A stretch of DNA of 64,000 bases, from contig NZ_JAERQF010000009.1 of the NCBI RefSeq assembly GCF_016734815.1, positions 62,001-126,000 of the forward strand, in the 5' to 3' direction. Below the pieces are notes generated by a model. That model searched no databases and was not told where the DNA came from. It saw only the letters and a list, made by a program, of their open reading frames with translations. Of this stretch, positions 19,443 through 22,690 are shown piece by piece. A program made the translations under genes and the position numbers. Source of the stretch: Hymenobacter rubidus. Lineage in GTDB: Bacteria; Bacteroidota; Bacteroidia; Cytophagales; Hymenobacteraceae. How positions within the stretch are numbered: the first letter of the stretch is position 1; each line of letters starts with the position of its first letter.

Positions 19443-19530
19443 GCGGAGTACCCCGAAATTTTATTTCGGGCCGCGCAACTACCCGTTCACCAAAGCATAC
19501 GGCCCGAAATAAAATTTCGGGGTACTCCGC
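19443..19530. repeat. Perfect 30-bp inverted repeat, family D
   Basis: The arms at 19443-19472 and 19501-19530 are perfectly complementary across a 28-bp loop. Each arm contains the internal palindrome cccgaaattttatttcggg, so each can also fold alone. Only one copy is present in the window. It follows the flotillin stop codon. Confidence 0.85.
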
Positions 19531-19533
19531 GTA

Positions 19534-19603: not shown

Positions 19604-20068
19604 CTACGTCAGCTGAGTGGGGCGGTTGATAACTTCCTCCAACGATATCAGTGTCTCGGTGCGCTCGATGCCGTCGATGGGCTGAATGCGGTCGTGGAGT
19701 ACGTCGCGCAGGTGCTGGGTGTCGCGGCACATCAGCCGGGCAAACACGCCGTAGGCCCCGGTGGTGAAGTGGATGTTCACGACTTCGGGAATGTCGCGCA
19801 GCTGCTCGACCACGCTCGAATACACCGAGCTTTTGAGCAGGTAAATGCCCAGAAAAGCATTTACGCCATACCCCAGCTTGTTAAAATCGATGCGCAATGT
19901 GGCGCCCTGCACAATGCCGATTTCTTCGAGCCGCGCCATGCGGACGTGCACGGTACCGCCCGAAACATTGACTTTGCGGGCAATTTCGGTGTAGGGCATT
20001 TTGGCATCCTGAATCAGCAAGTTCAGAATGTTCCGGTCAGTGTCATCAAGTTCGTAATTTCTAGCCAT
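19604..20068 (-). CDS. Lrp/AsnC family transcriptional regulator
   Basis: A 154-residue DNA-binding regulator of standard length. The N-terminal winged helix-turn-helix is LDDTDRNILNLLIQDAKMPY, then TEIARKVNVSGGTVHVRMARLEE. The C-terminal RAM/AsnC ligand-binding domain covers LRIDFNKLGYGVNAFLGIYL through GAYGVFARLMCRD. Members sense amino acids or similar metabolites and usually regulate themselves. The upstream region has a 7+7 bp palindrome beside its -7 element (20131-20154) and a divergent promoter for a candidate RNA, so it may control both transcripts. Confidence 0.93.
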   Translation of the reverse strand: MARNYELDDTDRNILNLLIQDAKMPYTEIARKVNVSGGTVHVRMARLEEIGIVQGATLRIDFNKLGYGVNAFLGIYLLKSSVYSSVVEQLRDIPEVVNIHFTTGAYGVFARLMCRDTQHLRDVLHDRIQPIDGIERTETLISLEEVINRPTQLT

Positions 20069-20154: not shown

Positions 20155-20186
20155 TTTGCATCATCTCAGACGCCCTCTTACATTTG
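20155..20186 (+). promoter_or_regulatory. Canonical Bacteroidota promoter (TTTG-N20-TACATTTG)
   Basis: TTTG at 20155-20158 and TACATTTG at 20179-20186 are separated by 20 bp, an exact match to the Bacteroidota consensus in both elements and in spacing. It points away from lrp, into the intergenic space with the candidate RNA. Confidence 0.65.
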
Positions 20187-20192
20187 TTACAA

Positions 20193-20423
20193 TCCTAGGC
20201 AGAAGGCCGCGGCAACAAAGTAGTAGAGCAAAGCACGCAATAAACCCCGGATTTCCGGCTGTATTGTTCGCTAACTCTTTTATGAAAGGCAATTCCTTTC
20301 ACTACGGCTGTGGTTGGATACGGAGGAGAAGAGGGGAAAACGAGGCCGCGCATCTGGGTGGGTGCGCTCCTCACACTGGTAAGAGGCGGCCTCTGGGTGG
20401 GGGCCGCCTCTTCGTGCTTTAAA
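20193..20423 (+). ncRNA. Candidate structured non-coding RNA (novel)
   Basis: About 230 nt downstream of the promoter at 20155-20186 in an otherwise empty 405-bp gap. Visible structure: a closing stem aaagcacg (20230-20237) with cgtgcttt (20413-20420). Inside are hairpin I (caata/tattg plus ccgg-attt-ccgg, 20238-20266), hairpin II (gaaagg-caatt-cctttc, 20284-20300), hairpin III (20342-20372) and hairpin IV (11-bp perfect stem, 20381-20412). Hairpins III and IV have the identical loop tctgggtggg. It also contains a 46-codon frame (20282-20422, MKGNSFHYGCGW...), so a small peptide is an alternative. I do not recognise it as RNase P RNA, tmRNA, SRP RNA or 6S RNA. Confidence 0.5.
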
Positions 20424-20473
20424 ACGATTGCGGGAATCATTCGCTTCTACTGCCCAGCTTATCAGCGGGTTGT

Positions 20474-22690
20474 TTACCGAGCAGCCACCGGGGGACGCTG
20501 GGTGTGAAACTGTTGCACGCCGGTCCGCAAAAAGCTGCTGAACTGCGCCACATCCGGCTCGTAGGCAATGGGAGCTACCAGGGGCTTGTTGGTGGCATCG
20601 TTGGGGTCGAGCAGCACGTAATACGGCTGGGCATTCATTCCGTAGCGCGATACCTGCAGGTCGGCATTCTGCTTGCCAAGGGTGGTTTTCAGTTGCTTAT
20701 CGTAGGGCGAGGTGTACCACTCTTTTTGCGGCAGCTCGGTTTTGTCGTCTACGTACAGGGCCACCACCACGTAGTCGTTGCGCAGTTGCTCCAGCACTTG
20801 CGGGTCGCTCCATACGGTGGCTTCCATCTTGCGGCAGTTCACGCAGGCGTGGCCGGTGAAATCAATAAAAATCGGCTTGTGCTCGAGGCGGGCCACACGT
20901 TTGGCCTGTTCCAAGTCGAAATAGCCGTTGAGGTTGTGGGGCAGTTCGAGGAAATCGCCGAAGCGGGGTGCTTCGCGGGCCGTCGCCGGGCCGGTTGAGG
21001 CAGTGGCCGCACCACCGTTTTCGGCGGTTGCCAACGAGAAATCGTGCTTGCTCTGGGGCGGCAGGTAGCCGGCCAGCAGCGGCAGCGGCGCGCCAAACAG
21101 GCCCGGCACCAGGTACACGGTGAAGGAAAAGGCCAGCACCGCCATCAATAGGCGACCCACGCTGAGGTGGTCGAGGGGCGAATCGTGCGAGAGGCGGAAT
21201 CGGCCCAGCAGGTAAAAGCCCAGCAGGGCCGAAAGCACAATCCAGAGCACGATGTACACGTCGCGGCTTAGCAGGTGCCAGTGGTAAGCTAAGTCAGCCA
21301 TACTCAAAAACTTCAGCGCCAGCATCAGCTCCACAAAGCCCAGCACCACCTTCACGGTGTTGAGCCAGCCGCCGGAGCGGGGCAGATTTTTCAGCCAGGC
21401 CGGGAAAATGGCAAACAGGGTGAACGGAAGCGCAAACGCCAACGAAAACCCAAACATGCCCACCACCGGCGTGATGCGCTGCCCGTGCGCCGCCAAACTC
21501 AGAATACTGGCCACAATGGGCCCGGTGCAGGAAAACGATACCAACACCAGCGTAAAAGCCATGAAAAAAATGCCAAACCAGCCGCCTTTGTCGGCCTGCG
21601 CGTCGGCTTTGTTCACCATGCCGCTGGGCAGCGTAATCTCAAACAGCCCCAGAAACGAGAGCCCGAACACCACGAATACGACAAAGAAAATCAGATTGGG
21701 AAGCCAGTGCGTACTAATCAGGTTCAGCCCATTTTCGCCCAGTACGACGGTCACGGCCAGCCCGATTACCACGTAGATGAAGATGATGGACAGGCCGTAT
21801 ACCACTGCCTTCAGAATGCCCTCGGCCCGGCTGTTGGCACCGCTGGTAAAGTACGATACCGTCATGGGTATCAGCGGGAAAACGCAGGGCGTCAGCAAAG
21901 CCCAGAGTCCGGCAATAAAAGCCCCGAAAGCAAATGTCCACAAGCTGCCGGTAGCTGCCTCGGCAGCCGGAGCAGCCGCTACCGCACTAGCGGCTGCTGG
22001 TGCAACAGCGGCAGCGGAGGGCGCAGCAGGCGTTTCGGCCGGCGCCGGTACCGCTGCTGCGCTGGCTGGCCGCTGCAAGGCGGTATCGGCCGGGGCGGAT
22101 GGCGAAGCAGCCACCGGGGTGGCTTTTGCCGGCGGGGTGGCTACGGCTGTCTCCGTTTTGGCGGGCGCGGCCGGCGGCACGGCGCCGGTAGTTTTGGTCG
22201 GGGCGGCCCCTGCCACGGTCAGCGGACCAAATTTCAGGGTTTCGTTGCCGGGCACGCAGCGGCCGTCCACATCGGTGCAGGTTTGGTAGTCGGCGTCGGC
22301 CGAGATGGTAAGGGCACCGGGCTGGAGGACTTTGATGCGCTGCCGCATCTGGCCGGTTTTTTCCCAAAAAGCCACTTCGCCCTTAAATACCTCGTCTTGC
22401 TCGTGGTGCGATTTGATGGCTTGGAGCTTGCCCACCAGCGCGTAGGCCGGGCTGGGCTTGAACTTGAGGGTGAAGACTACAGGCCCCACGTCCTCGCTGA
22501 AATCGGAAGCGTAGAGGTGCCACTTGTCGTCGATGCGGGCATTCACGATGAGTTCCACCTCCTCGCCCACTTTGGCGGTGGGCTTGCTCAGGGCGGTGCT
22601 CAGGTGGGTAGGCACCAAAATTTGAGCGGCGGCCGGGCCGGCCAAGCCCAGCCAGAGCAGCAAAAACGCAAACATCCAGGAATTCTTCAT
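20474..22690 (-). CDS. dsbD: Thiol:disulfide interchange protein DsbD
   Basis: A 738-residue inner-membrane electron carrier. After the signal peptide (MKNSWMFAFLLLWLGLAG) comes a periplasmic alpha-like domain with a cysteine pair in YQTCTDVDGRCVPG. An Ala/Pro-rich linker of ~80 residues follows. The membrane core of about eight helices carries the redox cysteines in LLTPCVFPLIPM and VSFSCTGPIVAS. The C-terminal thioredoxin-like gamma domain has HACVNCRKME. It moves electrons from cytoplasmic thioredoxin to periplasmic thiol proteins. The linker is longer than in enterobacterial DsbD. The 266 bp upstream (22691-22956) holds no recognised element on this strand. Confidence 0.94.
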   Translation of the reverse strand: MKNSWMFAFLLLWLGLAGPAAAQILVPTHLSTALSKPTAKVGEEVELIVNARIDDKWHLYASDFSEDVGPVVFTLKFKPSPAYALVGKLQAIKSHHEQDEVFKGEVAFWEKTGQMRQRIKVLQPGALTISADADYQTCTDVDGRCVPGNETLKFGPLTVAGAAPTKTTGAVPPAAPAKTETAVATPPAKATPVAASPSAPADTALQRPASAAAVPAPAETPAAPSAAAVAPAAASAVAAAPAAEAATGSLWTFAFGAFIAGLWALLTPCVFPLIPMTVSYFTSGANSRAEGILKAVVYGLSIIFIYVVIGLAVTVVLGENGLNLISTHWLPNLIFFVVFVVFGLSFLGLFEITLPSGMVNKADAQADKGGWFGIFFMAFTLVLVSFSCTGPIVASILSLAAHGQRITPVVGMFGFSLAFALPFTLFAIFPAWLKNLPRSGGWLNTVKVVLGFVELMLALKFLSMADLAYHWHLLSRDVYIVLWIVLSALLGFYLLGRFRLSHDSPLDHLSVGRLLMAVLAFSFTVYLVPGLFGAPLPLLAGYLPPQSKHDFSLATAENGGAATASTGPATAREAPRFGDFLELPHNLNGYFDLEQAKRVARLEHKPIFIDFTGHACVNCRKMEATVWSDPQVLEQLRNDYVVVALYVDDKTELPQKEWYTSPYDKQLKTTLGKQNADLQVSRYGMNAQPYYVLLDPNDATNKPLVAPIAYEPDVAQFSSFLRTGVQQFHTQRPPVAAR

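Follow-up and report, generated by a model that had tools for sequence, protein, structure and literature searches.

A conserved structured RNA beside lrp in Hymenobacter, a putative descendant of a Bacteroidota-wide tRNA-like RNA with added identical-loop hairpins

The identity set of tRNA-Asp consists of G73, G2-C71, G34, U35, C36 and C38. SerRS reads the class II shape together with G73, and allo-tRNAs and tRNA-Sec-like tRNAs are built on 8/4 or 9/3 acceptor branches (PMC7609411). In tmRNA, a tRNA-like part is joined to a longer RNA, and we find a likewise composite organisation, in which a putative tRNA-like remnant is followed by two hairpins with the same loop, in a gene located between lrp and dsbD in the 64,000-nucleotide stretch of Hymenobacter rubidus DNA analysed here (contig NZ_JAERQF010000009.1, positions 62,001 to 126,000; hereafter, the window; Table 1). 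The gene is not a tmRNA, as neither an RF00023 match nor a tag frame is found here and a normal tmRNA gene lies on another contig. The 6S RNA model (RF00013) has no match at the locus, but it has none in the rest of the genome or in a Bacteroides control either, which makes this negative uninformative. Rfam 15 gave no credible match for the region and no relevant one for the whole window or for relatives, in agreement with the initial annotation, which could assign the region to no known RNA class.

There is good support for a conserved structured RNA encoded on the plus strand between lrp and dsbD. A sequence search of the genus returned matches to positions 20155-20440 in 80 of 120 Hymenobacter genomes, and the 70 homologous loci that we read all adjoin lrp, which points away from the RNA gene in each of them, with dsbD as the next gene in many, not all, loci of the genus. 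They fall into two groups. The members of group A, to which the window belongs, have in common a leader (AATCCWAGGCAGAAGGCC), GTTGGATACGGAGGAGAAGAGGGGAAAAC and two hairpins, with a variable middle between the first two elements. Group B has the promoter, 5' end and hairpins in common with group A and carries in its middle a tRNA-like cloverleaf (TLS), which is complete in most relatives. When these homologous gaps are aligned, the two hairpins and the 5' part alike show compensatory changes, which bears out the structured RNA proposed in the initial annotation. The fold of positions 20228-20422 lies 4.5 s.d. below dinucleotide shuffles, compared with only about 2 s.d. for a longer piece and for the opposite strand. 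The promoter-like TTTG-N20-TACATTTG element that had been pointed out upstream is indeed present, with TTTG at 20155-20158, a 20-nt spacer and TACATTTG at 20179-20186. Its -7 box is conserved in the relatives, with TA(C/A)ATTTG in nearly all loci of the genus, and the -33 box is retained in group A and weaker in group B; we infer that the RNA gene is transcribed from this conserved promoter. On the other side of lrp, between it and a stomatin-like gene, the window also contains a large inverted repeat (GGAGTACCCCGAAATTTTATTTCGGGCCG and its complement, 19444-19532), perhaps a small mobile repeat.

Table 1. Features of the lrp-dsbD region, in window coordinates.
Feature	Position	Strand	Basis or remark
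lrp (Lrp/AsnC family regulator, 154 aa)	19604..20068	-	divergent from RNA gene
Promoter-like TTTG-N20-TACATTTG (Bacteroidota -33/-7 type)	20155..20186	+	sequence; boxes in genus loci
RNA gene	20192..20412	+	conservation and covariation; start estimated from promoter, end is last base of hairpin IV
Two outer helices	20192-20196/20315-20319 and 20206-20213/20307-20314	+	RNAalifold, 23 group A homologues
Putative tRNA-like remnant	20220..20305	+	R2 alignment, group A covariation, complete domain in relatives
Remnant acceptor helix	20220-20223/20302-20305	+	
Remnant variable-arm hairpin	20247-20250/20255-20258	+	
Remnant conserved GCTAAC	20270-20275	+	
Remnant T-arm	20284-20289/20295-20300	+	
Purine-rich linker, probably single-stranded	20320..20341	+	conserved in groups A and B
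Hairpin III, loop UGGGUG at 20355-20360	20342..20372	+	fold, alignment, covariation
Hairpin IV, loop UGGGUG at 20394-20399	20381..20412	+	fold, alignment, covariation
dsbD	20474..22690	-	convergent neighbour of RNA gene

The 3' module is formed by hairpins III and IV, which follow the purine-rich linker. The decamer TCTGGGTGGG occurs at 20353 and 20392, its only two copies on either strand of the window, and with 0.13 expected per strand two occurrences within 40 nt are far beyond chance. Two hairpins with identical 10-nt loops had been described here initially; both are present and conserved, but their loops hold 6 unpaired bases, not 10. Across groups A and B, every aligned sequence has UGGGUG in the loop and a C-G pair closing it, and the next pair is either U-G or U-A, so that the flanking UC and GG pair and leave UGGGUG hexaloops. 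Among 31 sequences of the two groups aligned with MAFFT, 12 of the 23 pairs of the two hairpins are changed on both sides; double-change cells number 51, compared with 14.7 in shuffled alignments and a maximum of 17 for slid partners. By contrast, the 8-bp stem proposed to close the structure (AAAGCACG/CGTGCTTT, 20230-20237/20413-20420) does exist in the window, but its complementarity is lost in homologues (e.g., L002, L004 and L010), which rules it out as a conserved helix.

Some genomes carry three UGGGUG hairpins (L045, L055, L068 and L070). In group B, hairpin IV is followed by a T run and resembles a terminator, which is less so in the window. In group B, a possible pairing of the linker GAGGAGGG with CCCTCCTC of the TLS anticodon arm is also seen by eye, although unevenly so (e.g., L069). 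With a model of the module (R1), we found it in 94 of 120 Hymenobacter genomes and in all eight genomes of a sister genus (g6); it is absent from the other four genera of the family, and elsewhere in the order R1 matches occur at chance level only. Within this genome, exact CATCTGGGTGGGTG is confined to the window site and inexact matches are scattered, and the 18 matches to paired TCTGGGTGGG in viral contigs are direct repeats, none of them matching R1.

The 5' half of the RNA appears to be tRNA-like in origin, a descendant of the TLS whose ancestry is read from sequence comparison. A second model (R2), built from 20 group B sequences, aligns with filters off end-to-end and in register over 20218-20308, the D and anticodon arms appearing as deletions, at 6.5 bits, a score that is weak alone and leans on the relatives. 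RNAalifold, run without a tRNA model on 23 distinct group A homologues, likewise yields an acceptor helix, a variable-arm hairpin and a T-arm enclosed by the two outer helices, and no D or anticodon arm; the group A 5' part has 43 double-change cells against 16.2 when shuffled, a value reached in none of 300 shuffles. Two close relatives (L125 and L126) have the complete TLS and the 3' module together, and thus represent a transition form to the window RNA. In the sister genus, the lrp-side TLS copy is also degenerate (L121-L124), and G198, a genome among these, carries a complete TLS on a different contig (L115). R2 finds no TLS in the H. rubidus genome at E ≤ 1e-15. A decoding tRNA can be rejected for the window copy: the arms required for the full cloverleaf, which is present in the TLS relatives with D, anticodon and T arms, are gone, and both ARAGORN and the Rfam tRNA model miss it.

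At the same threshold (E ≤ 1e-15), R2 detects the TLS in 212 of the 291 genomes that represent the order, covering 87 of 115 genera. A sample of the phylum gave 38 carriers among 395 genomes, and these include members of additional families in the class and of one family that lies outside the class. Carriers in an exact-pattern scan include Pontibacter, Algoriphagus, Cyclobacterium, Echinicola, Belliella, Flammeovirga, Sporocytophaga, Spirosoma, Saprospiraceae and Chitinophagaceae; none were found in phage and plasmid records. TLS genes have their own promoter and terminator and often occur in tandem, with up to six copies per stretch. Many distant copies share a conserved motif, GGGTTGACCAC, in the variable arm (L148, L149, L151, L155, L159, L162 and L166), which in tandem pairs is often found in the second copy only, and a boxA-like GTTCTTTAACAA, as in rRNA leaders, precedes the TLS at L147 and L150. 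Besides the copy at lrp, some Hymenobacter genomes contain another TLS that is nearly identical but lies elsewhere, with an ordinary terminator and no UGGGUG hairpins (L101-L105). This genome encodes a short, 77-nt TLS paralogue (C40:37714-37791, L314) upstream of a dinB-like gene; near-identical across the genus (L317-L321), it has its own promoter and terminator and shares the UGU/ACA-G acceptor and a CUAUCUC loop with TLS copies. It is the only TLS-type copy called by tRNA callers, ARAGORN labelling it a tRNA-Asp with an odd anticodon, AUC; ARAGORN calls none of the long copies, and Rfam misses the long form too. R2 scores the tRNA-Ser pair and tRNA-Pro of this genome at 24-29 bits, against 77-146 for long TLS copies.

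The TLS cloverleaf comprises a 7-bp acceptor, a 5-bp T stem, a 5-bp anticodon stem with a 7-base loop, and an enlarged variable region, of 32-114 nt between the anticodon and T-arms. All six of its helices are supported in 89 copies, where 98.6% of cells are paired, both sides have changed at 20 of the 30 pairs, and 308 double-change cells are seen versus 79 in shuffled and 43 in slid controls, counts that lean towards the model to which the alignment was fitted. U1-A72, G2-C71, U3-A70, G73, U8, G18-G19, purine 26 and the T-loop UUCRANY are invariant or nearly so, and A14 is also conserved. U35, C36 and C38 are likewise near invariant in the anticodon loop, most commonly CUGUCUC; position 34 is G in 64 of the 89 copies and C in most Hymenobacter ones. 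U33 is found in 75 of the 89 copies and a purine at 37 in only 4, which makes ordinary decoding look unlikely, and no CCA is encoded in the copies read.

The association with lrp extends well beyond Hymenobacter. Outside the family, an lrp homologue lies within ∼1.5 kb in 24 of 37 TLS loci sampled, and TLS and lrp are divergent in all 33 loci measured across the phylum, the distance between the lrp start codon and the start of the TLS being 121-213 nt; the corresponding distance to the acceptor helix of the window is ∼151 nt. Only one lrp homologue was found in this genome at the search sensitivity applied, so that adjacency by chance would be well under 1%. The link is not obligatory, since 13 of the 37 sampled loci and the Pontibacter-type copies have no lrp nearby. 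Several of the latter (among L106, L108, L109 and L112) lie, by eye, within a few kb of a gene for a DUF2911-like secreted protein. Regulators of the Lrp family commonly act on the intergenic region next to their own gene, so the divergent Lrp probably controls the RNA gene.

Our favoured reading, to which we assign a probability of roughly 60%, is that of a free, ∼220-nt non-coding RNA gene (20192-∼20412, plus strand), divergent from lrp and descended from the TLS, whose identical loops bind one common partner. Its ancestor would have been a Bacteroidota-wide TLS gene in the corresponding position next to lrp. In Hymenobacter and its sister genus, the simple terminator of the TLS would have been replaced by the purine-rich linker and two, sometimes three, UGGGUG hairpins, and in the clade of the window the D and anticodon arms would then have been lost, with the acceptor helix, variable-arm hairpin and T-arm retained and the 3' module left nearly unchanged. 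Invariant loops on changing stems fit a binding function, and their constancy along with a varying number of hairpins is more in keeping with titration or binding at several sites than with one kissing pair. Each molecule could thus offer two or three copies of the site to a protein titrated in the manner of CsrB, or, through pairing of the loops, to RNA targets rich in C (CACCCA). The retention of the acceptor helix and T-arm suits a role in stability or in processing by tRNA enzymes (RNase P, RNase Z), and the remnant may alternatively recruit a tRNA-binding protein.

An unlikely but substantial alternative is that the RNA still acts as a tRNA-like molecule, non-decoding, processed, CCA-tailed and perhaps charged, serving amino-acid signalling together with Lrp, with the hairpins as nothing but a modified 3' end. 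The fixed place beside lrp speaks for it, as do the full cloverleaf and tRNA tertiary signature of relatives, in which the acceptor end does not vary (U1-A72, G2-C71, U3-A70 and G73), and the acceptor helix and T-arm that the window clade retains; however, the window copy has dispensed with the two other arms and the hairpin module is its best-kept part. The hairpins could also be merely a strong double terminator serving a tRNA-like transcript and the convergent dsbD, with the common loop as a by-product. Hairpin IV of group B with its T run does resemble a good terminator, but the first hairpin has no T run, that of the window is poor, and termination does not need an invariant loop kept in two or three hairpins over ∼100 genomes, all of which makes this account improbable.

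Readings of the region as something other than a hairpin-bearing RNA fare worse still. A G-quadruplex assembled from the four GGGTGGG-type G runs across the two loops is very improbable, given that several homologues have GGGTGGA instead, which breaks the run and turns the U-G pair into U-A. Hardly any credence is left for a small peptide from a 46-codon frame, the alternative offered in the initial annotation: the frame is open in the window but kept in only 7 of 25 close (group A) homologues, the loop-to-loop spacing is 38, 39 or 40 nt, and changes track base pairs.

Returning to the TLS-descended RNA with partner-binding loops, we tentatively place it within a broader picture, about which we are less than evenly convinced: stand-alone tRNA-like RNAs whose variable arms are enlarged would form an uncatalogued, Bacteroidota-wide class, with an ancestral pairing with Lrp and control by it, and would have a non-translational role in amino-acid signalling. 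In Hymenobacter, one of these RNAs would have become a chimeric regulatory RNA, first gaining the hairpins with identical loops and afterwards shedding its decoding arms. A widespread, lrp-divergent cloverleaf RNA raises the question of whether it is charged and reports the amino-acid state. The decay of the tRNA-like body in the window clade, where the two-loop module is kept, amounts to a natural dissection that makes the parts separable for experiment.

Among known RNAs, the TLS relatives are like class II tRNAs (tRNA-Leu and tRNA-Ser) in their 7/5 cloverleaf, T-loop UUCRANY, U8, A14, G18-G19 and purine 26, and their D-arm resembles that of tRNA-Leu. With tRNA-Asp they share G73, G2-C71, U35, C36, C38 and often G34, all but position 34 of this set being near invariant. 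They differ from ordinary tRNAs in the 32-114 nt gap between arms, the rare purine 37, the variable position 34, the lack of an encoded CCA, and the possession of their own promoter and terminator. Allo-tRNAs and tRNA-Sec-like tRNAs are likewise non-canonical tRNA-like genes with a long variable arm, sometimes polycistronic (PMC7609411), but the 7/5 branch of the TLS, rather than 8/4 or 9/3, sets it apart from them. A literature search whose coverage excluded preprints, most subscription journals and tRNAscan-SE annotations found no description of the TLS, which we regard as an uncatalogued tRNA-like RNA that may have been noticed earlier; its chimeric Hymenobacter form could be placed in no known class. 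In carrying repeated hairpins with one invariant loop in variable copy number, the window RNA is like CsrB/RsmZ. However, CsrA sites have a GGA core, whereas the UGGGUG loop is without GGA in all aligned sequences, and the repeats of the window RNA number only two or three and are fused to a putatively tRNA-derived part.
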